Virus record (IMG/VR): IMGVR_UViG_3300010233_000342
Span: 1-20,915 of that record
DNA length: 20,915 bases
Origin: a virus
Direction: 5' to 3' (one strand)
Below are positions 467 to 14,571 of this stretch, piece by piece. Position numbers and translations under genes: made by a program. The first letter of the stretch is position 1; each line of letters opens with the position of its first letter. A model generated the notes under the pieces. The model was not told where the DNA came from, did no database searches, and saw only the letters and a program-made list of their open reading frames with translations.

Positions 467-2446
467 TTATTCATAAAGCGGAAGTCGATAAACTCCAGCA
501 TCACCGGACACCGTGACGGAGATCCATTTGGTCGGTGCTGCGCTAGAAACTGGAGGCGCGTTGGTTGCGCCAAATTTTAATTGATTGGTGGTTCCTGCGA
601 TGAACACTTGATTTGAAGAGGTAAGTATTCCTGATACAGTTGAGTCTCCAGTAATTAGCTGATCAATGCTATCGCCGGAGGAAAAAGCACCGACTGTCAT
701 AAGGTGAGAACCCAAGGCTCTCGCATTTCTTCCGAGAACAATAGAATTTGTGAGCTTGGTTGTAACAAACGATGCATCCTTTCCTGTTTTATACCCGATG
801 AAAATCATGTAATCGTCATTGGTGCTCGCCGTTGATGCTCCTGCCCCTTGTCCTGCTGAAAAACCTAGTCCTAAATTTTGAGATCCGATCGTAGTGCTCC
901 CTAAAGAAAGATAGCCGAAAGCAGAATTCTCAGCGCCGGAGATAGCTAGTGACAACGATTGATAACCAAAAGCTGAATTGTTTGCTCCAGTGCTGACAGC
1001 GAGAGCACTTTCCCCAAAAGCTGAATTCTGGGAGCCGGATACATTTGCGGTCAGAGCTAAGAAACCGAAGGCATTGTTTCCCACACCAGTCGTATCATTC
1101 ATCAGTGCTTCCCAACCAAATGCAGAATTTCGTCCCGTTGACGTTTGAGATTTGAGCGCACTCCAACCGAAAGCAGCACATCCGGTAGATGTCGTTACAG
1201 ATGACAAGGCCATTGGACCATACGCTTGATTATACGTTCCGCTCGTGAGACTTTTCAAAGCCTGAAAACCAATGCCTTGATTCTGGCCGGAATAGGTCAC
1301 CGTGTTGGACCCTGCTTCGCTTCCCCAGAAGAAATCTGACAGGCTTGATCTTAACTCTGTCTCCAATACTCCGTTGGTGTTTACAATGGATATGGTAGGA
1401 GCACGTTTTGACGCCGTAGATGCGGCAATGACCGAATTAAATGGCGTGCCATCAATTAACGTCTGCGGACCTCTTGCCAGTGGCACGTTGGCATTGTTGA
1501 TTAAATCAAATGGCACAGTCGGAGCATAGGTGTAAGTAGCTTCCACAAGTGAGATCCTTTGCTTCATGTAGTTGGCGATAACACCGTCCCATGTAATCGT
1601 GAAATGCACTCCGTCAGCAGTCATTGAGGTCGGAACTTGATCGAGTGCGGCATCTGCTTGGTCTTGAGCGTTGGTTGGTGCCTGGGAAATAAGATACGAT
1701 CGGAGATCAATGAAGTGATTGGTATAAGTCTGAGTGAGTATGTCTACTAGGTTCGTAAAATACGTATAGTTTGTAGTACCTAGGGCTTCATTGGTTTTTG
1801 TGTTGCAAACTGGCAAAATGAAATACTTTCCGTTACTCTGGGCCGCGACCATTCGAGCGAGATTAGTCACAACTTGGTTTACAGCAGTGGACGCATCTGC
1901 CGTGAAATCATTCCTGCCAATCCAAAAAATGCCTGTCCAGTTCGTCAGATATTTGTTTGTGTTCGCCACATCAGAGAGCATTCTATCTGCTATTGGAGTC
2001 GCTAGTTGACCGTTGACCCCTCCATTGTAATTTGTTCTGCCGGTGATTGCGGTAAGTTGTGTGCGATAAGATGGAGGACCGAAAGTCAGTGAGTCTCCCC
2101 AGCAAGCAAAATTCCACCACGAATAGTTGTTCGTAATTTGACTCGTAGAAAATAACCCGGTCGATCCTGATCCTCTGATGGTTGAGACGGTCGCTTTTAC
2201 CGTATTACTCCCCCCATCCGTCGTCACCGGAACCGTGTCGGTGGATTGGACGACGTTGGTCGAAACCAGTCCCGATCCAGGAACGGTGTTAGTTGTGAAA
2301 TCGTTATTTTTGAGAGGCGGCCCACCCGTCATGCTGATCGTTCCACTGGCCGAAATGTTTTTGAAAAAACTCGTCGTCGTTGACGCAGCGCCAATCAGTA
2401 ACAACGTCACGGCACCTATGAGTAAGTAAACTGAAATTCGTTTCAT
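467..2446 (-). CDS. SGNH/GDSL-type hydrolase fused to YadA-head-like repeats, with N-terminal signal or anchor segment
   Basis: I chose the ATG at 2446 (659 residues) because it puts a Lys-Arg and a hydrophobic stretch at the very N-terminus, as in a signal peptide or anchor, and lies just after the upstream stop. An alternative ATG is at 2467. Numbered from 2446, an SGNH hydrolase domain spans about 110-300: block I CWGDSLTFG with Ser119, block III IGRND with Asn179, and block V DGVHF with Asp278 and His281. Such domains hydrolyse esters, often removing acetyl groups from glycans. Residues about 387-538 hold nine repeats of about 17 residues (NSAFGYQSL type), then FIGYKTG/SIVLGRNA units and a short C-terminal domain. 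The role is probably receptor or surface-glycan deacetylation. A signal peptide is odd for a virion fibre, so a secreted or membrane-tethered protein is possible. Confidence 0.8.
   Translation of the reverse strand: MKRISVYLLIGAVTLLLIGAASTTTSFFKNISASGTISMTGGPPLKNNDFTTNTVPGSGLVSTNVVQSTDTVPVTTDGGSNTVKATVSTIRGSGSTGLFSTSQITNNYSWWNFACWGDSLTFGPPSYRTQLTAITGRTNYNGGVNGQLATPIADRMLSDVANTNKYLTNWTGIFWIGRNDFTADASTAVNQVVTNLARMVAAQSNGKYFILPVCNTKTNEALGTTNYTYFTNLVDILTQTYTNHFIDLRSYLISQAPTNAQDQADAALDQVPTSMTADGVHFTITWDGVIANYMKQRISLVEATYTYAPTVPFDLINNANVPLARGPQTLIDGTPFNSVIAASTASKRAPTISIVNTNGVLETELRSSLSDFFWGSEAGSNTVTYSGQNQGIGFQALKSLTSGTYNQAYGPMALSSVTTSTGCAAFGWSALKSQTSTGRNSAFGWEALMNDTTGVGNNAFGFLALTANVSGSQNSAFGESALAVSTGANNSAFGYQSLSLAISGAENSAFGYLSLGSTTIGSQNLGLGFSAGQGAGASTASTNDDYMIFIGYKTGKDASFVTTKLTNSIVLGRNARALGSHLMTVGAFSSGDSIDQLITGDSTVSGILTSSNQVFIAGTTNQLKFGATNAPPVSSAAPTKWISVTVSGDAGVYRLPLYE
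830..1290 (-). repeat. Nine tandem protein-level repeats (about 17 residues, G-x-N-S-A-F-G-x-x-A/S-L)
   Basis: Units within the SGNH protein include GRNSAFGWEAL, GNNAFGFLAL, GSQNSAFGESAL, GANNSAFGYQSL and GAENSAFGYLSL. The DNA copies have diverged, so the periodicity is clear at protein level but not as a DNA repeat. The pattern matches the short left-handed beta-roll repeats of trimeric adhesin heads, which predicts a trimeric stalk or head. Confidence 0.75.
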
Positions 2447-2451
2447 AACGA

Positions 2452-2916
2452 TCAGTGTATGTTCCATCCAGAGGCGCTTTTTATGTAAAGCAGCTTGGTT
2501 GTGTCATCCCAAGCAAACTGTCCAATGACACCAGCGCCGGGAGCTGGATCACCCGAAACCTGTAAGGTTGCAGAACCTCCTCCACCTCCCCCGCCGCCAG
2601 TTCCAGTAGCTGCACCGGAAAGCGTGGCGATGAATCCATTTGCTCCGTCATTGAAGATGTCCGCCGAATCCCCGTTCTGATTGAGCACTAACGTAGCTGC
2701 TCCGTTGATTAACTCGCCGGCAATCGCCTGAATGGTGATCGGATTGGCTGCCGCATTGCGAGTCGCGTCATAGATGATGAAGCTACAGCCCACAGCCGTG
2801 CCATGAGGAAGGAAAATATCAACCGGTGCTCCCGCCGTATCAACCAGGAACCGACCACCCTCAACGTTAAGCACTCCGTTGGACGGGATAGGGAAAATTT
2901 TAAGTTGTGTTGCCAT
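2452..2916 (-). CDS. Probable tail or fibre-associated structural protein with octaglycine hinge
   Basis: The start is taken at the ATG at 2916 (MATQLKIF, 154 residues). The in-frame ATG at 2970 would add 18 residues with no domain character. The first 100 residues look like a compact beta domain (VEGGRFLVDTAG, VDIFLPHGTAVG). A run of eight glycines (about residues 112-121 with flanks) forms a flexible hinge. The C-terminal 30 residues (GQFAWDDTTKLLYIKSASGW) have the pattern of the short tip domains seen at the ends of phage fibre proteins. It lies directly upstream of the SGNH gene. No family is recognised with certainty; the structural role is inferred from hinge, tip and position. Confidence 0.6.
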   Translation of the reverse strand: MATQLKIFPIPSNGVLNVEGGRFLVDTAGAPVDIFLPHGTAVGCSFIIYDATRNAAANPITIQAIAGELINGAATLVLNQNGDSADIFNDGANGFIATLSGAATGTGGGGGGGGSATLQVSGDPAPGAGVIGQFAWDDTTKLLYIKSASGWNIH

Positions 2917-3097
2917 ATCCGATCTTTGATTGGTCGCCGCTAACGGTCGCCCATACCAGATCGGAGGCACTCGCCACCAGAGCGACTAGGGCGACGGGGG
3001 AGGAGTGGTAGGGGGCAAAAGCGGCAAAAGCGATGATGGCACCGACGATTGGAATGAGGCAGGACTTTCGGAGCCAGCGGCTTTGTCGATGTGCCAC
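2900..3097 (-). CDS. Small hydrophobic protein, possible holin-like, overlapping the end of the HNH gene
   Basis: A 65-residue frame from a GTG at 3097, with a GAGAA stretch about 9 bases upstream. It overlaps the HNH gene by 112 bases and the next gene's start by 17. It has a basic N-terminus (RQSRWLRK), a hydrophobic segment (SCLIPIVGAIIAFAAF, about residues 12-27), a short turn with HSSP, and a second hydrophobic segment (VALVALVASASDLVWATV, about 35-52), then a polar tail. Two membrane segments on a 65-residue protein fit a class II holin or another small phage membrane protein. In the same stretch the HNH frame encodes only a low-complexity Pro/Ser tail, which suggests that this frame is the older gene. 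An ATG start at 3142 is the alternative. Confidence 0.45.
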   Translation of the reverse strand: MAHRQSRWLRKSCLIPIVGAIIAFAAFAPYHSSPVALVALVASASDLVWATVSGDQSKIGYGNTT

Positions 3098-3675
3098 TTG
3101 ACCAGGTTCTCTTTGTTCCAGATTGGCTGCGTGTTGGTCCATCTCAGTCCGCGTTTTCGGTCTTCTGGATCATTCAGGTCGAAAAATGCAATTGGCTTAA
3201 CGTGGTCAATGCACCATTTCCCAATTCCTTTTCCGTAGTTCGCCCAAGACATGCCTTCGACGAACTTGGATTCAAGATAGCAACGATACTCATCAATCGA
3301 ACAGCCAAGGTTCTCCTCAGCCATTGCAATGTTCGTTCCGAGAAACAGAGCACACCTGATCGCAGACCGAACGCTTGATAATATTTTCGCATACGCATAC
3401 TTCTCCCGATAACGCTGGGCATAGTCTGCGAGATGCTCTCGGCCTGAGTCTGATTTTCTCCATTGCTTACGCTGCTCTTGAATTTTCGCCTTATGATTTG
3501 GATCAGCAACTTGGGCCTTATATCGCGTCCGATTGTAGGCGTTAACACGCTCACAGAATTTCCCGTAGAGTTCGGGGTATTGCTTAAGTTCTTTAACTTG
3601 CTTGGGCGTTGCTCGTGGCCGTTCGTCATCGAAGTTGATGATGTGTCCGTCTGAACAGGTGAATGTATTTTGCAT
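2986..3675 (-). CDS. HNH endonuclease, probably free-standing homing type
   Basis: 229 residues. The N-terminus begins TFTCSDGHIINFDDERPRAT, followed by a basic helical region (about 40-95). The nuclease core is at about 122-192: GCSIDEYRCYLESKF, then KWCIDHVKPIAFFDL (Asp157, His158 as catalytic pair), and WTNTQPIWNKENL (Asn181, Asn190). This is the usual order for HNH proteins that nick or cut double-stranded DNA. Beyond residue 195 the sequence becomes Pro/Ser-rich and overlaps a hydrophobic frame, so the native C-terminus probably ends near there. It sits just after the capsid gene and has its own promoter with almost no leader, as expected for a mobile homing gene inserted between late genes. 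Confidence 0.8.
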   Translation of the reverse strand: MQNTFTCSDGHIINFDDERPRATPKQVKELKQYPELYGKFCERVNAYNRTRYKAQVADPNHKAKIQEQRKQWRKSDSGREHLADYAQRYREKYAYAKILSSVRSAIRCALFLGTNIAMAEENLGCSIDEYRCYLESKFVEGMSWANYGKGIGKWCIDHVKPIAFFDLNDPEDRKRGLRWTNTQPIWNKENLVKWHIDKAAGSESPASFQSSVPSSLLPLLPPTTPPPSP

Positions 3676-3722: not shown

Positions 3723-5423
3723 TCAGTAATAATAATCGTAAGAGGTCTGTCCTGGTGTCTTAGAAGCGTGCTCCGGCACGGTGAACGCGATATTCTCCCA
3801 GATTGCACTTGCCTGCGGGCATTCGACAACGACGGTGTAGGTGATCGAGTTCAGTGTGACCTTTTGCGTCGGATTCTTCATTACGCAAGCATAGCTGGTG
3901 TCCACAGCGGCCAGCGATCTAAGGTCGCCAGTGTCATTGATCACGCGATTGGACTCAATGATGCCAGGATAGATGCCGGCCCAATCCAGCGCCCACAGCT
4001 TTCTTCCAACATTACCGAGCGCAGCACTGACGTTGGTGTGAGCGGCAATCAAGTCATCGAAATAAGGATGCGTGACGATCGCGATGTTCATCGCCGGGGA
4101 AACCAAGCGATATTCGCTGAAGCGGAATCCGAGGGGGCCATTCTGACCAAGTTTTGCTTGGTTCAAATCCATTACCATTCTGAAGCTTCCACCGCTTTGA
4201 TAGTTGTAATACGCCACCATTGCTTGGTGGAACAACCCGGCAAACCAAGTATCTGTGAACAGATCGATCGTGGCCGTTTCCTCACCGAGCATGTCGCGCA
4301 CGCGCATGATGTTGTAGAGACCAATGAACAACTCAGGAAGGTCAAGCTGGCCCCCTTGGAGGTCGAACACCTGTCCGCATTGCGCGAGCTGCTCGTAAAC
4401 TCCGGTCGGGTTGGCGCGGTAGCCGATGCAGCGCCCTTCGCTCGATGGCAGATAAAGCGGGGACGCCGCGTAGGTAGTGATCTGGTCGAGGTTGGTGTAC
4501 AAATTGATGGTCTGATTGGCCGAGATTGGCTTCTCGAAGAAGAACGCCTCGACAAAGCGCCGTTGAAAATCTGAACCGATCTGCTTGTTCAGTTCGACCG
4601 CTTCGACATCCCCGTACTTCTCGAACAGCGGGTTGTTGGCGCGCAGCAAGGTCTGGTACTTGTCGTAGAGTTCGTCCCAGCACATCGTGTAACGGGTTGT
4701 GCCGACGAAGAACGGAACGTCCTTGTTAGGGTTCAGGCCGGGGATCTGATCGCAGAACTTCTCGTAATCGTTCACGTTGACAGTGCCGCGGGTAAGTACG
4801 CCCGAGGTCGGACTCGTCAGCTTGGCCGCAGAAAGGAACGAGCCGGCATTAAGCGAAGACATCACCAAGCGAATTGCTCCACCGACGATGTTGGCACTTA
4901 CGATCTGCCAGGAAGTCTTGGTTGCTGTACCGCCAGCGGTTTTGCCCGAGACGAACACATGCAGCCCTGGCGGGAACCAGCGGACATCGTTTGGAATGCC
5001 TGTCTGACTCATAATGTCCATCTGCCAGTTGCCACCGTTGACCACGCCGTTGACAGCGGTGAAGTAGACGTTGTTGATGATCGTCTTCTGGCGGGCCATG
5101 ACGAAGGGTTCGATGGCCAGCACGCCCCCGGAGAGTTTGCGCGTGTTGATCTTGTGGGACATGTTCACCTTCTGCGCCATGATGAACTCGTAGAGCCCGT
5201 TCACTTTGGCTCCGCAGCTCTTGATCTCGAAGTCCGAGACGAGCAGGGAAAGCATGTTGCGCCATTGGCCTGTGCCGTCGGAGAAGATCCCCTTTAGCGT
5301 GTCGCCGGTGGCTTTGCCTACGTTACAGAGAGTGACTGAACCGCATCGGGCGATGTCGGTGGAAATTGCGGGAAGACACTTCTCGAAGATATTCGCGGAA
5401 ATCAGACCTGCTTCGTTAGCCAT
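3723..5423 (-). CDS. Probable major capsid protein
   Basis: 566 residues with no signal peptide or membrane segment, ordinary composition and many aromatic residues. It begins MANEAGLISANIFEK and ends SYDYYY. I call it capsid from context: it follows a 494-residue scaffold-like gene, which follows the portal module, the canonical head order portal, scaffold, capsid. No other gene here has the size and character. It is long for a capsid protein, so an additional surface domain is possible. Conserved-looking segments include PGLNPNKDVPFFVGTT and a C-terminal region with WALDWAGIYPG. The ATG has no Shine-Dalgarno site; the 48 bases before it are a hairpin that also holds the scaffold stop codon. 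Confidence 0.75.
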   Translation of the reverse strand: MANEAGLISANIFEKCLPAISTDIARCGSVTLCNVGKATGDTLKGIFSDGTGQWRNMLSLLVSDFEIKSCGAKVNGLYEFIMAQKVNMSHKINTRKLSGGVLAIEPFVMARQKTIINNVYFTAVNGVVNGGNWQMDIMSQTGIPNDVRWFPPGLHVFVSGKTAGGTATKTSWQIVSANIVGGAIRLVMSSLNAGSFLSAAKLTSPTSGVLTRGTVNVNDYEKFCDQIPGLNPNKDVPFFVGTTRYTMCWDELYDKYQTLLRANNPLFEKYGDVEAVELNKQIGSDFQRRFVEAFFFEKPISANQTINLYTNLDQITTYAASPLYLPSSEGRCIGYRANPTGVYEQLAQCGQVFDLQGGQLDLPELFIGLYNIMRVRDMLGEETATIDLFTDTWFAGLFHQAMVAYYNYQSGGSFRMVMDLNQAKLGQNGPLGFRFSEYRLVSPAMNIAIVTHPYFDDLIAAHTNVSAALGNVGRKLWALDWAGIYPGIIESNRVINDTGDLRSLAAVDTSYACVMKNPTQKVTLNSITYTVVVECPQASAIWENIAFTVPEHASKTPGQTSYDYYY

Positions 5424-7124: not shown

Positions 7125-7546
7125 TCCAAACTGTTCAACCAATTTCGAAACTCGGGTAGGCTTCCGAAGGCATCAATCTTCTTCAAATTCTCGGTCACAT
7201 CCAGGTGAAGACGTTCAAGCCACGTCTTCACGCGCTCACCAGCAGAAGACTGTGGTCGTTGAATCCATTGCTTTGAGTCAGCGCGATATAATCCGCGATA
7301 TGCTCTCACCGCGTTGGCCAATTTGCTGATTTTCTGGCTTCGAGTCATTCTACTCGGACCTTTATTACGTTTCCACTTCCGATACCAAAACGGCATGATT
7401 GCCAAGATAGATGGATCGGTATGCCCGCTGGCAACCATGTTGATCGCGTCGGCGTCGTACTTTTCAAATAACTCGACGCAGTGTGCGTATTCTTTGGGCC
7501 AAATGTCCGCACAATAGTCGGCTTGCTTGTCATAATCGACGCTCAT
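7121..7546 (-). CDS. Hypothetical protein in the head gene cluster
   Basis: 141 residues, basic and rich in Trp and Tyr (FWYRKWKRNKGPSR at about 53-66), mostly helical in appearance. It overlaps its upstream and downstream neighbours by ATGA junctions, so translation is coupled. I do not recognise the family. Because it lies between portal and scaffold, a head-completion, connector or packaging accessory role is possible but not shown. Confidence 0.65.
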   Translation of the reverse strand: MSVDYDKQADYCADIWPKEYAHCVELFEKYDADAINMVASGHTDPSILAIMPFWYRKWKRNKGPSRMTRSQKISKLANAVRAYRGLYRADSKQWIQRPQSSAGERVKTWLERLHLDVTENLKKIDAFGSLPEFRNWLNSLE

Positions 7547-7845
7547 TCCACCTCGAACTTCGTCATCTCAAATTCATGCTCCGGTTTGCTCAACTCTTGC
7601 AACACGTCCAGAAAGATTTGGTACTTTGCAGCCGCGATGTTGTTCGCGCGCGCCTTCGAATTCTCTGGCCCAGCCGCGAGCACGTTCAGCGGCGTCGTGA
7701 GCATCTCGGCGTGTGCTTTGTTGGCATAGGCAGCGATTTGACCTTTGATCACCTTCTCAAGAATCGACCTGCCTTTGTGTTGCAGGAAATCGTTGAGGGC
7801 GATCAGATCAGGCTGGGATAACTGGACTGGCGTTTGGATTAGCAT
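7543..7845 (-). CDS. Hypothetical protein in the head gene cluster
   Basis: 100 residues with an alternating helical pattern (SQPDLIALNDFLQHKGRSIL, then ARANNIAAAKYQIFLDVLQE). The stop overlaps the next start as ATGA. There is no strong Shine-Dalgarno site. In the phage this was probably the first or second gene after the portal; today the attC array and a 52-residue frame lie between them. No family recognised; a small connector-associated protein is one possibility. Confidence 0.65.
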   Translation of the reverse strand: MLIQTPVQLSQPDLIALNDFLQHKGRSILEKVIKGQIAAYANKAHAEMLTTPLNVLAAGPENSKARANNIAAAKYQIFLDVLQELSKPEHEFEMTKFEVE

Positions 7846-7858
7846 GATGAGGGCGTTT

Positions 7859-8017
7859 CTAAAAAAATAGCTTATGAAAACCGATGATCAAATAGGCGAA
7901 CTCAAGTCGAATCCGAAGCCAGAAGATTTCAATTAGCTGGTGGGCGGTGACGTACCAGTACTCCAGTCGTCTAACAAGGCGCTCCAGCCAACGCCGGAGA
8001 TTACTCTTGATTTTCAT
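7859..8017 (-). CDS. 52-residue aromatic/hydrophobic ORF that starts inside attC-A
   Basis: The frame starts at ATG 8017 within the central part of attC-A, with an AAAGG site six bases upstream. It runs out through the attC R'' box and ends at 7859, 13 bases before the next phage gene. The N-terminus is basic (MKIKSNLRRWLERLVRR); the rest is aromatic and hydrophobic (EYWYVTAHQLIEIFWLRI, then FAYLIIGFHKLFF). It could be a membrane-associated peptide. About 15 N-terminal residues are encoded by recombination-site sequence, so the true product may be a fusion made by the insertion, or the frame may be fortuitous. It lies on the transcribed strand of the head operon. Confidence 0.4.
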   Translation of the reverse strand: MKIKSNLRRWLERLVRRLEYWYVTAHQLIEIFWLRIRLEFAYLIIGFHKLFF

Positions 8018-8062
8018 TTGTGGCCTTTCTGTTCCGGCGTGGCTCAGCTTGGGTCGTTAGGC
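7969..8062 (+). repeat. attC-A, integron recombination site
   Basis: The outer boxes are GTCTAAC (R'', 7969-7975) and GTTAGGC (R', 8056-8062), matching RYYYAAC and GTTRRRY. The inner arms are CAGCCAACGCCGG (7985-7997) and CCGGCGTGGCT (8034-8044); they pair with one unpaired extra base on the left arm. This asymmetry is the normal polarity signal of attC and sets the orientation as +. Total length is 94 bases. No convincing cassette boundary is visible to its left. Confidence 0.85.
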
Positions 8063-8089
8063 ATCCAAGTCCACTCCAAGAACTGAAGA

Positions 8090-8524
8090 ATGACCAACAC
8101 GGTTGCTATGCTAAGAGAGGTCGCCAACATCGCTGCCGCAGTTCCTTGGTATGTTTCCACGTTGCTGTTGCTCATCGTGCTCGCCCTGAGCGTCGGATGG
8201 ATGGCGATGAGAATAGAGAAAGCCGCCGCCAAATTGACCACCATCCAGACAGCGGCACACGCCTCCGCAATAGAGATAGCCAGCTTGCTTAGCTCACGAA
8301 GTAAGACGGTCGCGTTTCTGCTTTGGCTCCTTTCAGTATCAGGAGTTGCCGTTATATGGTTCGCGTTTCCCGCAGTCACTCGTCTCTCCTGTCTTTTAAT
8401 GGTTCTCGTCGGTGGAGTTTCATTTTTGCTTTTGGCGTATCTGATTATTGAGTTTGTGTTCTGGCGTATGGGTCGGCAAATCGAGCGTGAGACAATGGAT
8501 AGGAAGCAGCGCAGAAATGCCTAA
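8090..8524 (+). CDS. Cassette 1 gene: three-TM membrane protein of unknown function
   Basis: 144 residues. It starts 33 bases after the cassette boundary with only a weak GAAGA site. The TAA stop lies within the R'' box of attC-B (GCCTAAC), a common arrangement in integron cassettes. Membrane segments are at about 21-40 (YVSTLLLLIVLALSVGWMAM), 72-95 (KTVAFLLWLLSVSGVAVIWF region) and 98-125. Between the first two is a 30-residue helical segment, and the C-terminus is basic (MDRKQRRNA). I recognise no family. Small membrane proteins are frequent cassette cargo; a host-surface or phage-exclusion role is only a guess. Confidence 0.7.
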   Translation: MTNTVAMLREVANIAAAVPWYVSTLLLLIVLALSVGWMAMRIEKAAAKLTTIQTAAHASAIEIASLLSSRSKTVAFLLWLLSVSGVAVIWFAFPAVTRLSCLLMVLVGGVSFLLLAYLIIEFVFWRMGRQIERETMDRKQRRNA

Positions 8525-8611
8525 CCAATCGCTGCACCCAACACCGCGATTACGTTCTTGTTTCATTCGAGAGTCTCCTTACGCGGTGTGGGTGAGCTTG
8601 GGTCGTTAGAC
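8519..8611 (+). repeat. attC-B, integron recombination site ending cassette 1
   Basis: The outer boxes are GCCTAAC (8519-8525) and GTTAGAC (8605-8611). The inner arms CACCCAACACCGCG (8535-8548) and CGCGGTGTGGGTG (8582-8594) pair with one extra base on the left arm, giving + orientation. Length is 93 bases. The R'' box contains the stop codon of the cassette 1 gene. The bottom strand has AAGGAG followed by ATGAAA in the centre. Confidence 0.85.
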
Positions 8612-8632
8612 CGCATAGTGCGCTTTGAATTT

Positions 8633-8815
8633 ATGAACACAGCACCAAATGACATGGACGAGGCGCTTCGCCTCATCGACAAACTTAACATGATAAACGG
8701 AGCAATACTCATAGCGATTACGCAGAAGGGATCGCTGACAAAATACGAATACAATTTGATATACGCTCGCACGCTCCAAGAATGGGAACAGAAGCATGCA
8801 CGCCCAAACAACTAA
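8633..8815 (+). CDS. Cassette 2 gene: small hypothetical protein
   Basis: 60 residues from the ATG at 8633. The open frame extends back into attC-B, but a start there would lie before the cassette boundary, so the ATG at 8633, 27 bases inside the cassette, is preferred. The protein looks soluble and helical (MDEALRLIDKLNMINGAILI, then TKYEYNLIYARTLQEWEQK). It ends 42 bases before the R'' box of attC-C. No clear Shine-Dalgarno site and no recognised family. Confidence 0.5.
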   Translation: MNTAPNDMDEALRLIDKLNMINGAILIAITQKGSLTKYEYNLIYARTLQEWEQKHARPNN

Positions 8816-8857
8816 GGCGGATTAGAGACACCTCATTTTGTATCTGATCAAGAGGCG

Positions 8858-8966
8858 GCCTAACAAGGTCGCTCCAGCCAACGCGGGAGTCCGGTTTAGG
8901 TTTGCCATTCAGCTTTTTGTTTTTCATTGGTTCTTGGCCTCGCGTGGCTGAGCTTTGGCGTTAGGC
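8858..8966 (+). repeat. attC-C, integron recombination site at the portal gene end
   Basis: The outer boxes are GCCTAAC (8858-8864) and GTTAGGC (8960-8966). The inner arms CCAGCCAACGCG (8874-8885) and CGCGTGGCTG (8941-8950) pair with one extra base on the left, giving + orientation. Length is 109 bases. Read on the - strand, the R' box contains the TAA stop codon of the portal gene, so this box marks the junction between cassette DNA and phage DNA. Confidence 0.85.
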
Positions 8967-11792: not shown

Positions 11793-12395
11793 ATGCAACA
11801 AGGCATCTGTATCGAGTGCGGCTCCGTTTTTCAAGACCTTCCTTCAAGAATACGTCGAACAAAGTTTTGCAGCCGCACCTGCTCAAGTAACAGCAAAAGA
11901 CGATCGGTTGAGGAAAGATTTTGGAAATATGTAACTAAGGGCGATGGCTGTTGGCCTTGGATTGGCACAACGAACCATGATGGTTACGGGGTAATCAGAT
12001 CGCGATTGGCCTCTGGTCGCAGAGAATCAATATTAACTCACAGAGTGTCTTGGAAAATTCACTATGGAGCAATTCCAGATGAACTAGAGGTTTGTCATAA
12101 TTGCGACAATCCACCGTGTGTGAGACCGGATCATTTGTTTCTTGGAACTCATAAAGAAAACATCGAGGACGCTACTGCCAAAGGCAGAATGAAGGGCTTG
12201 AAAGGAGAACTTAATACAAACTCGAAACTCACCGAGGAAAACGTGTTGGAAATTCGTGCGATGAATTCAAAGGGTGCTTCTCGAACTGCAATAGCAAAAC
12301 AATTTGATGTGAGCGTAACACTAATATCGGGCATAGTTAGTGGAAGATCGTGGAAACACTTACTTCCAAAGTCCGAGCAATTGACTATGTTCTAA
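11793..12395 (+). CDS. HNH endonuclease (HNH_3-like) with N-terminal zinc knuckle and C-terminal helix-turn-helix
   Basis: 200 residues with a good AAAGGG site six bases before the ATG. The N-terminus has a zinc knuckle (Cys6, Cys9, Cys26, Cys30). The nuclease core at about 53-125 shows CWPWIG, a helix with THRVSW, then the cluster CHNCDNPPCVRPDHLFLGTH followed by ENIEDA, the usual HNH_3 order with Asp113-His114. The C-terminus (about 146-190) reads LTEENVLEIRAMNSKG, then IAKQFDVSVTLISGI and GRSWKHL, a DNA-binding module common in homing HNH proteins. It overlaps the possible terminase start. It stands where a small terminase gene would be expected, so it could be a homing gene or a packaging-associated nuclease; the module structure favours homing. 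Confidence 0.85.
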   Translation: MQQGICIECGSVFQDLPSRIRRTKFCSRTCSSNSKRRSVEERFWKYVTKGDGCWPWIGTTNHDGYGVIRSRLASGRRESILTHRVSWKIHYGAIPDELEVCHNCDNPPCVRPDHLFLGTHKENIEDATAKGRMKGLKGELNTNSKLTEENVLEIRAMNSKGASRTAIAKQFDVSVTLISGIVSGRSWKHLLPKSEQLTMF

Positions 12396-13903
12396 GCGTG
12401 CAAGAACCAAAATTTTGGACACCTGACTTAATGCCTCTCCAGTGGGCCGTGTTTAATGATTATACCCACCGCTACCTCTTGCTAGAAGGGTGTAGACTAT
12501 CGGGAAAAACCAGAGCGTCGCTTTGCCGCATCGCACGCCATCTGTGGGAGACAGATAGAGCTGATGTTGGCATTTTCGTTCGCACTACACGCAGCGCAAA
12601 AAACGCTGGTATATGGGATGAACTCTGCGTCACCGTTATCGAAGATTGGATGAAGCATGGATACTTCTTCGGAAAATGGGTAAAGCCTGGACCGTATACT
12701 TCTGACGGGGTAAGCAAAATTCCCTTCTTCACTTTGCGCGGACAGAATGGAACCATCTCGCGTTGCTCCTTGTTTAATGTGGAAGATGACGCGGAATGTG
12801 AACGTAAGGTACGCGGAACTAGATTCTCGATGGTATATTTTCCAGAACTCGGGAACTTCCTTTCTCGCTCGGTCTTCGATGCTACGAAGTCTCAGCTCAG
12901 ATGCTTGCACCTGCCGTACGAACATCACTTGTTTCTAGCGGATTGCAATCCGACCGAGCAAGGAGAGGCATCATGGATCTACCAGCTTTGGATGGTTGAG
13001 AAATTTTTGCCGCCTAAAAATGAGGACGAGAAAGCATTTCGTGATCAACTTCACTCAATCCACTTTCAAATCTCAGACAACACAAAGATCGATCCCCGTG
13101 AGATGGCAGACTTGCGCGCGTCATACCAATATTCACCAGATTTGTATGCGAGGTACATCGAGGGGAAATGGACAGCCAGCACCGAGAATTCGCACTTCGT
13201 AGATGTCTTTGTAGAAAACGTTCACGTCGTTGGCCAGGCCCACGGAGCGAATAAGGACGACTGGGAAGTGATCACCCCAGACGAAGGCTGTCACGAGCTA
13301 ATCGGAATGTTCGACATGGGCGACGTAAATCATGCTGCCCATATAATGCAAAAGCGAATCGTCAACAATGAAGTCTCCTTCGACGTAATCGACGAACTTG
13401 TGTTTCTAAAAGAGCGAATCAGTATCGAGGACTTCACGCTGCTCTACATGGAGAAAATGGATCTCTGGGAAAAGTATGTTGAAGAGAATTACGGAACGCG
13501 AAATCTCCACTGGCGTTGCTGGTCAGATTCTTCAGCATTTCAGTATCGATCCGCTGCTGATTCACATGATGAGCTAATCGTGAGAAACGTAAGCGAAGGC
13601 CGCATCTTGCTCGGGGCAGCTCCAAAAGCAAAAGGATCGGTGAAAATGCGAGTTAATCTTCTGCGCAAACTGCTTTTTCAAAAACGCATTTTTTTCTCAG
13701 CCCAATTGTTCGAGACAATTCGCATGATTAAAGGCTTGAAGAAAGGCACTAGCCTCACCGACTACGTTGATCGCTTGGACCAAATGAAGCACGCCTTCGA
13801 CTCACTCACTTACGGATTAATGGGGGAAGCGCCAATGGACGCGCAGAACCGTTCTCGTCCGAAGGTGGAGAAGAGATCGAGCGTGGTGACCGTTGGGCTT
13901 TAG
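12350..13903 (+). CDS. terL: Terminase large subunit
   Basis: 517 residues from the GTG at 12350. A second GTG at 12398, two bases after the HNH stop, would give 501 residues and may be the true start because the first 16 residues only mirror HNH coding sequence. The N-terminal ATPase has Walker A GCRLSGKT (47-54), a Walker B-like MVYFPE (161-166), and a DCNP coupling motif (198-201). The RNase H-like nuclease has acidic residues at FDMGD (322/325), WSDSSAF (Asp393) and HAFDSLTYGL (Asp484). The protein pumps DNA into the prohead and cuts concatemers. It is transcribed away from the portal operon. No small terminase gene is recognised next to it. Confidence 0.92.
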   Translation: METLTSKVRAIDYVLSVQEPKFWTPDLMPLQWAVFNDYTHRYLLLEGCRLSGKTRASLCRIARHLWETDRADVGIFVRTTRSAKNAGIWDELCVTVIEDWMKHGYFFGKWVKPGPYTSDGVSKIPFFTLRGQNGTISRCSLFNVEDDAECERKVRGTRFSMVYFPELGNFLSRSVFDATKSQLRCLHLPYEHHLFLADCNPTEQGEASWIYQLWMVEKFLPPKNEDEKAFRDQLHSIHFQISDNTKIDPREMADLRASYQYSPDLYARYIEGKWTASTENSHFVDVFVENVHVVGQAHGANKDDWEVITPDEGCHELIGMFDMGDVNHAAHIMQKRIVNNEVSFDVIDELVFLKERISIEDFTLLYMEKMDLWEKYVEENYGTRNLHWRCWSDSSAFQYRSAADSHDELIVRNVSEGRILLGAAPKAKGSVKMRVNLLRKLLFQKRIFFSAQLFETIRMIKGLKKGTSLTDYVDRLDQMKHAFDSLTYGLMGEAPMDAQNRSRPKVEKRSSVVTVGL

Positions 13904-14157
13904 TGGTTGACCGTCTTGATTTTGTCGCCGCACTCTTTCAAATCATCTAGGCGGCAGCGTATGAGAGAAGCGTCTTCAAGTTTCCACCAATTGCCGCAGA
14001 AGTGAATAATAAGCGGTCCGTGATACCCCAACATTTGGTCAAGTCGGCTGATGATCGTAGGATGCAAGACGCCTGCCTGTTTCGCGTGATAGTCAACCTC
14101 GTGATGCAGACCGATCCAAAGCTCGATTGGAGCTTCGACTGGCGCTTGAGTTTTCAT
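13900..14157 (-). CDS. Hypothetical protein
   Basis: 85 residues, convergent with the terminase and overlapping its end by four bases. Notable features are an N-terminal region rich in His and acidic residues (LWIGLHHEVDYHAKQAG) and a central hydrophobic motif with GPLIIHFCGNWWKLED. It lies at the downstream end of the right-hand leftward operon, after a structured non-coding stretch. No Shine-Dalgarno site is visible before the ATG. I do not recognise the family. Confidence 0.55.
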   Translation of the reverse strand: MKTQAPVEAPIELWIGLHHEVDYHAKQAGVLHPTIISRLDQMLGYHGPLIIHFCGNWWKLEDASLIRCRLDDLKECGDKIKTVNH

Positions 14158-14161
14158 AAAT

Positions 14162-14319
14162 TGGCGGTTGCGGCCAGATTCGATACTGGCAACTGGGGCT
14201 TATTCTACCTCTTACCCGCTCCCGCCTCGTTGCTGTGAACAACGTACGGGCTACGAGGGCAATTTCCCATATCCACTCCGGTCGGCAAGACCGGCGAGTC
14301 TGTCTTCCTCCACGCAACC
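14162..14319 (-). ncRNA. tRNA-like structured element with an 87-base insertion
   Basis: Read on the - strand, the ends form a perfect seven-base-pair stem, GGTTGCG with CGCAACC, followed by G and an encoded CCA. After the 5' stem come TG, a short D-arm-like GAGG...ACTC, one G, and a five-pair stem with seven-base loop (CCGGT-CTTGCCG-ACCGG) whose second and third loop bases are T. A five-pair stem GCCAG/CTGGC with loop TATCGAAT abuts the 3' acceptor strand exactly as a T-arm does. The parts have tRNA spacing, except that 87 bases replace the variable loop and the T loop has eight bases. Further hairpins lie in the insert. It could be a degenerate or interrupted tRNA, or another structured RNA. 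Confidence 0.35.
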
Positions 14320-14322
14320 AAT

Positions 14323-14571
14323 TCATTGCTTTAGCACCCTGCAAAACCAGAGCTGCGTATTGTAGCCGCTGGAGTCCACTGCTACAAGGAGCCATCCTTG
14401 ACGGCCTAGTAAATTGGCTTCCGCGGGCAATCCTGTTCTATATTCGAGCAACGGATTGTCAGGCAGTTCGTTTGTAGGAAACGCGGCTTCCGTTGCGGAC
14501 GTGGCGATCATCGCTTCGAGCATCTTCTTTTTGAACCCAGGCCTTAGCTTCATTTGTCGGTGTCGTGGCAT
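14323..14571 (-). CDS. Small protein with DUF4177-like core
   Basis: 82 residues. The basic N-terminus (MPRHRQMKLRPGFKKKM) is followed by a region ending with ANLLGRQGWLLVAVDSSG and LWFCRVLK, which resembles the core of DUF4177-type proteins (an asparagine and leucine-rich helix, GW, then two beta strands). No catalytic function is known for that family. The start is two bases after the upstream stop. A second ATG at 14553 is a possible start. The family match is from pattern recognition only. Confidence 0.6.
   Translation of the reverse strand: MPRHRQMKLRPGFKKKMLEAMIATSATEAAFPTNELPDNPLLEYRTGLPAEANLLGRQGWLLVAVDSSGYNTQLWFCRVLKQ

Follow-up and report, generated by a model that had tools for sequence, protein, structure and literature searches.

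An array of integron cassettes is located in the head operon of the tailed phage described here, and it is best read as a CALIN, i.e., integrase-less cassette cargo, that was probably inserted by an integron integrase of the host where the probable portal gene ends. The window that we analyzed is an entire virus record (20,915 bp, a 20.9-kb contig) from a soil phage, whose large terminase and syntenic head genes, in an order common to virus contigs, place it among the tailed phages. Three attC sites fall within 1 kb, and the record gave no match to the integron integrase model TIGR02249, as corresponds to a CALIN; with no intI on the contig, the array does not make up a complete integron. The earlier note had advised a search for intI, and neither on the contig nor on the sampled relatives was an integron integrase found. 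The absence of this gene from the contig makes insertion in trans by a host IntI the best reading of the array.

The features of the window and of the two other contigs discussed below are listed in Table 1. Judged by boxes, arms and predicted folds, the three attC sites of the window can be taken as confirmed, i.e., genuine and canonical. All of them (3/3) have complementary R boxes of the expected form (R'' RYYYAAC and R' GTTRRRY), and both the model alignment and the folds gave paired L arms, an extrahelical base and unpaired spacers. In the window, a simple R/L-box finder recovered these three attC sites alone, and 60 Markov-shuffled copies of it gave no site. A covariance model (R1), trained on 16 attC sites of bacterial contigs, none of them from the window, scored exactly the same three sites at 47–52 bits (E ~1e-12 to 1e-13, as a rough estimate) without any further match. 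R1 is a narrow model that misses the sites of the phages TJE1 and P12002L. A chance likeness to attC was ruled out by the shuffles together with the covariance model. The bottom strand of attC2 folded better than 200 of 200 shuffled sequences while attC1 and attC3 were less remarkable; the case for the sites rests on boxes and arms and not on folding energy. No Rfam family matched them. The description given in the earlier note (three attC sites with correct R boxes, paired L arms and one-base asymmetry) was therefore borne out, also by a covariance model, the kind of check that it had proposed, and the two rightward cassette genes that it had marked are open as claimed.

Table 1. Coordinates of the attC sites, cassettes and neighboring genes of the window, and of attC-bearing regions in two other virus contigs.
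Feature	Position	Strand	Basis or remark
Window
Conserved 100-aa gene, next after the portal gene in relatives	7543–7845	-	50–59% identity in relatives
Left segment between the sole GTT (7855) and attC1	7856–7968	.	Single GTT
52-aa ORF, possibly coding; starts in attC1 loop on operon strand, ends 13 nt before next gene	7859–8017	-	ORF; AAGG + ATG
attC1 (R'' GTCTAAC, 7969–7975; R' GTTAGGC, 8056–8062)	7969–8062	+	R/L-box finder; R1 46.9 bits
Cassette 1, 549 bp between two G|TT cuts	8057–8605	+	Bounding R' boxes (attC1, attC2)
Cassette 1 gene, 144 aa	8090–8524	+	ORF; stop within R'' of attC2
attC2 (R'' GCCTAAC; R' GTTAGAC, 8605–8611)	8519–8611	+	R/L-box finder; R1 48.3 bits
Cassette 2, 355 bp	8606–8960	+	Bounding R' boxes (attC2, attC3)
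Cassette 2 gene, 60 aa	8633–8815	+	ORF; stop 42 nt before attC3
attC3 (R'' GCCTAAC; R' GTTAGGC, 8960–8966)	8858–8966	+	R/L-box finder; R1 52.1 bits
Probable portal gene, 808 aa	8961–11387	-	Synteny in six relatives; weak profile match to 8zkk (E 0.007)
L059 (G005:C1:18000–34177)
attC array region	12719–14389
attC-like sites	13294–13900
G410
intI	2221–3177	-
attC	3383–3516	+
attC	3973–4077	+

The sites delimit two complete cassettes, the first beginning with TTAGGC and the second with TTAGAC, which match their own R'' boxes at 7/7 and 6/7 positions, respectively. With respect to attC, both cassette genes have the usual orientation, and they are therefore antisense to the phage operon, where they may nevertheless be expressed and even be of some benefit. 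Codon statistics favored the top strand in cassette 2 and were undecided in cassette 1, for which the choice of coding strand is based on the cassette layout and the appearance of the protein. Bottom-strand genes in the two cassettes were considered and held less likely, since no bottom frame spans from an attC-loop start to the next attC and the top ORFs fill the cassettes. The product of cassette 1 is probably a membrane protein. Neither protein matched any family or had homologues in plasmids or virus contigs, the cassette 2 protein likewise having none in 388 genomes, and the DNA of the array showed no similarity to phages and plasmids. A scan for promoters and terminators gave hits at chance level only.

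As the earlier note had proposed, the array sits within a leftward structural operon. Its neighbors there are the portal gene and the conserved 100-aa gene, and the portal identity can only be called probable. It is suggested by the size of the protein, its place near terL and a weak match, in a profile search, to gp5, a portal of solved structure (8zkk, E 0.007). The portal protein matched no Pfam or PHROG family and nothing in a named phage collection, and the AlphaFold models of the portal and capsid proteins were unusable (mean pLDDT 32 and 34). The assignment of terL is firm (phrog_2, E 6.6e-20, in a family search of the window), and other conserved genes occupy structural positions. An HNH endonuclease gene (11793–12395, plus strand; PF13392, E 4.4e-13) extends over the beginning of the terminase ORF, and is possibly a homing endonuclease beside terL. 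A search for the host by capsid protein among 388 genomes from the phylum to which the Verrucomicrobia MAG L031 belongs gave one weak, stop-interrupted match that was unconvincing.

The gene order of the portal region is common to six virus contigs, and these relatives, whose comparison the earlier note had recommended, show what the site looks like without the array. In four of them (L003 to L006, 74–77% portal identity) the slot is empty and the end of the portal gene shares 38, 38, 38 and 32 nt, respectively, with the start of the 100-aa gene. In the other two, 336 bp separate the portal from the next gene (L001, 6129–6464; L002, 8413–8748) and hold another ORF, a moron-like gene. This insert occupies the same slot, includes a second, diverged copy of the DNA of the portal/next-gene overlap, has no attC site and carries its gene in the operon sense. 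The slot therefore takes up extra genes by more than one route. On both sides of the array the flanking genes are complete and can be aligned to those of the relatives. This bears directly on the suspicion that phage and bacterial DNA were joined in a chimeric assembly, which a metagenomic contig invites. Such an artifact is highly improbable here, because both flanks belong to the same phage, with complete and syntenic genes, and the slot of the relatives is empty or differently filled. It would take two false joins, both of them keeping gene ends whole, in an array whose G + C (0.50) is close to that of the rest of the window (0.51), and one relative (L003) has attC sites too.

The right edge of the array is exact, since the portal gene ends within the R' box of attC3. 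The 3' end of this gene reads GCC TAA C, i.e., GTTAGGC on the plus strand, and the portal stop codon (8961–8963) is inside R' (portal-stop sequence GCGTTAGGCC), with the cut of the right junction at G8960|T8961. The left edge is different. Between the 100-aa gene and attC1 there is a single GTT, at 7855, and joining 7855 to 8961 gives GGCG|TTAGGC with a frame open from the ATG position used by the relatives. However, the frame would also stay open for 15 of the 124 possible boundaries. The TTTCTA that follows 7855 is not complementary to the R'' of attC1. When the G|TT edges of an integrase-made insertion at a secondary site are looked for, the right one is exact and the left one has no matching remnant of a cassette R' box. 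The segment left of attC1 is possibly a truncated third cassette.

The main rival to integrase-mediated insertion is that, while the phage replicated, illegitimate (or homologous) recombination captured a ready-made piece of a bacterial array, to which later attC × attC events may have added cassettes. The left edge, unlike an integrase cut, would agree with it, as would the gain of another gene in the same slot by L001 and L002, with a duplicated overlap and evidently without attC sites, and events of this type have also been proposed by Qi et al. (PMC9892861). Still, we consider such a capture rather unlikely, as the right edge falls precisely at the G|TT cut inside the portal stop. This exact edge, together with published tests in which the attC sites of several phages were recombined by IntI1 (PMC9892861), makes insertion in trans by a host IntI the reading that fits best. 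During infection, a host-encoded integron integrase would act on the bottom strands of attC sites, folded as single-stranded DNA, and the cassettes would enter singly or as a small array at the GTTAGGC of the portal gene end, the cut being made between G and TT. Such an insertion would spare the portal stop and leave the next gene whole, so that the phage would stay viable. Delivery by a host integrase, already put forward in the earlier note, thus fits the right junction, the left one showing no matching R' remnant, and it is still something that we infer.

Phage CALINs are known since 2023, when Qi et al. (PMC9892861) described them in virulent and temperate phages (TJE1, PH101, P12002L and MW202573), some beside structural genes. 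The window resembles these cases in having an attC array without integrase in a tailed phage, some of them near structural genes as well. However, its attC sites are nearer to the canonical bacterial ones (R1 found none in TJE1 or P12002L and weak ones in MW202573), and it adds relatives with an empty site and an array placed at the portal stop. The rarity that the earlier note had ascribed to the array therefore has to be tempered: a CALIN in a phage structural operon it is, but phage CALINs had been published and more virus arrays have now been found. What is new is the portal-stop site, the existence of relatives with an empty slot and the presence of start signals in the attC loops, and with such relatives the window is an unusually clean case. 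With the arrays of bacterial sedentary chromosomal integrons and CALINs it shares the attC architecture and, in the two complete cassettes, top-strand genes, and it differs in the phage location, the lack of an integrase and apparently of attI, and the operon-strand start signals present in all loops. Cassette insertion at non-attI sites (attG; Loot et al. 2024) is alike in using a GTT-type target outside an integron, whereas the target in the window is the end of a phage gene and the insertion is putative, with a left edge devoid of a matching R' remnant. As a natural example of how integron cassettes come to lie among the structural genes of a phage operon, the window would make phage-borne cassette transfer testable at a defined site.

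Arrays of attC sites were found in further virus contigs. The full record of L003 (G005, 34 kb), with its empty portal slot, contains three attC-like sites elsewhere (45.9, 30.4 and 17.7 bits), two of them with R' GTTCGGC in place of GTTRRRY. The ORFs of this array begin within the attC sites, on whose bottom strand they are encoded. One of them codes for a DNA methyltransferase (family match from residue 28) that is 55% identical to a methyltransferase of MW202573, in a continuous alignment that starts at LGFPP, adjoining R''. By a test devised after this pattern had been seen, an ORF of at least 60 aa starting from a bottom-strand ATG inside attC was present at 14 of 22 virus sites (nine contigs; sites within one contig are not independent) versus 0 of 68 bacterial sites, most sites of the two sets having been found with different arm patterns. 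Counted by contig, the figures were 7/9 and 0/27, the virus set including one contig (L085) without a recognized phage gene. A small control with the virus arm pattern yielded a single bacterial contig, whose three good attC sites all lacked bottom-strand starts. The virus contigs noted for such starts are L059, L067, L082, L083, L084, L085 and L087, and on the minus strand of the window (7969–8966) the attC loops hold start signals.

These starts raise the question of whether the hairpins are kept mainly as gene-junction elements, which would supply the operon strand with a stop, a ribosome-binding site and a start, and not as recombination sites. A Shine-Dalgarno-like stretch followed by ATG is found in the bottom-strand loop of 8 of 22 virus sites versus 2 of 68 bacterial ones, and in all three loops of the window (as ATGAAA, on the operon strand); bottom-strand ORFs start at such sites in L059, L067, L083, L084, L085 and others. 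Nonetheless, we regard such a junction role as very unlikely for the window, where R boxes and L arms are canonical, the operon-sense ORFs are short (48–69 aa) and the likely cassette genes are on the opposite strand, codon statistics being indecisive. A tentative possibility, less likely than not, is that phages circulate a cassette class of their own, in which attC would be reversed with respect to the gene and its loop would give the ribosome-binding site and start on the transcribed strand, so that the gene could be translated in any phage operon. Some phages would supply the integrase, and the window would be a mixed array of phage-type loops and conventional top-strand genes. Judging from the related virus contigs, the construction of phage cassettes may differ from that of bacterial cassettes, and this would link the evolution of integrons to phage operons.

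One of these contigs, G410 (L082/L096, 37 kb), has Mu-like transposition genes, a major head gene and tail genes, together with an integron integrase that scores 275.5 bits versus a curated cut-off of 265. Its attC sites, oriented as is usual in integrons, begin 206 and 796 bp away from the intI start, and this is probably an integron in a phage. At the contig edge there is a 2-hydroxyacid dehydrogenase gene, which may belong to a prophage flank or be cargo.
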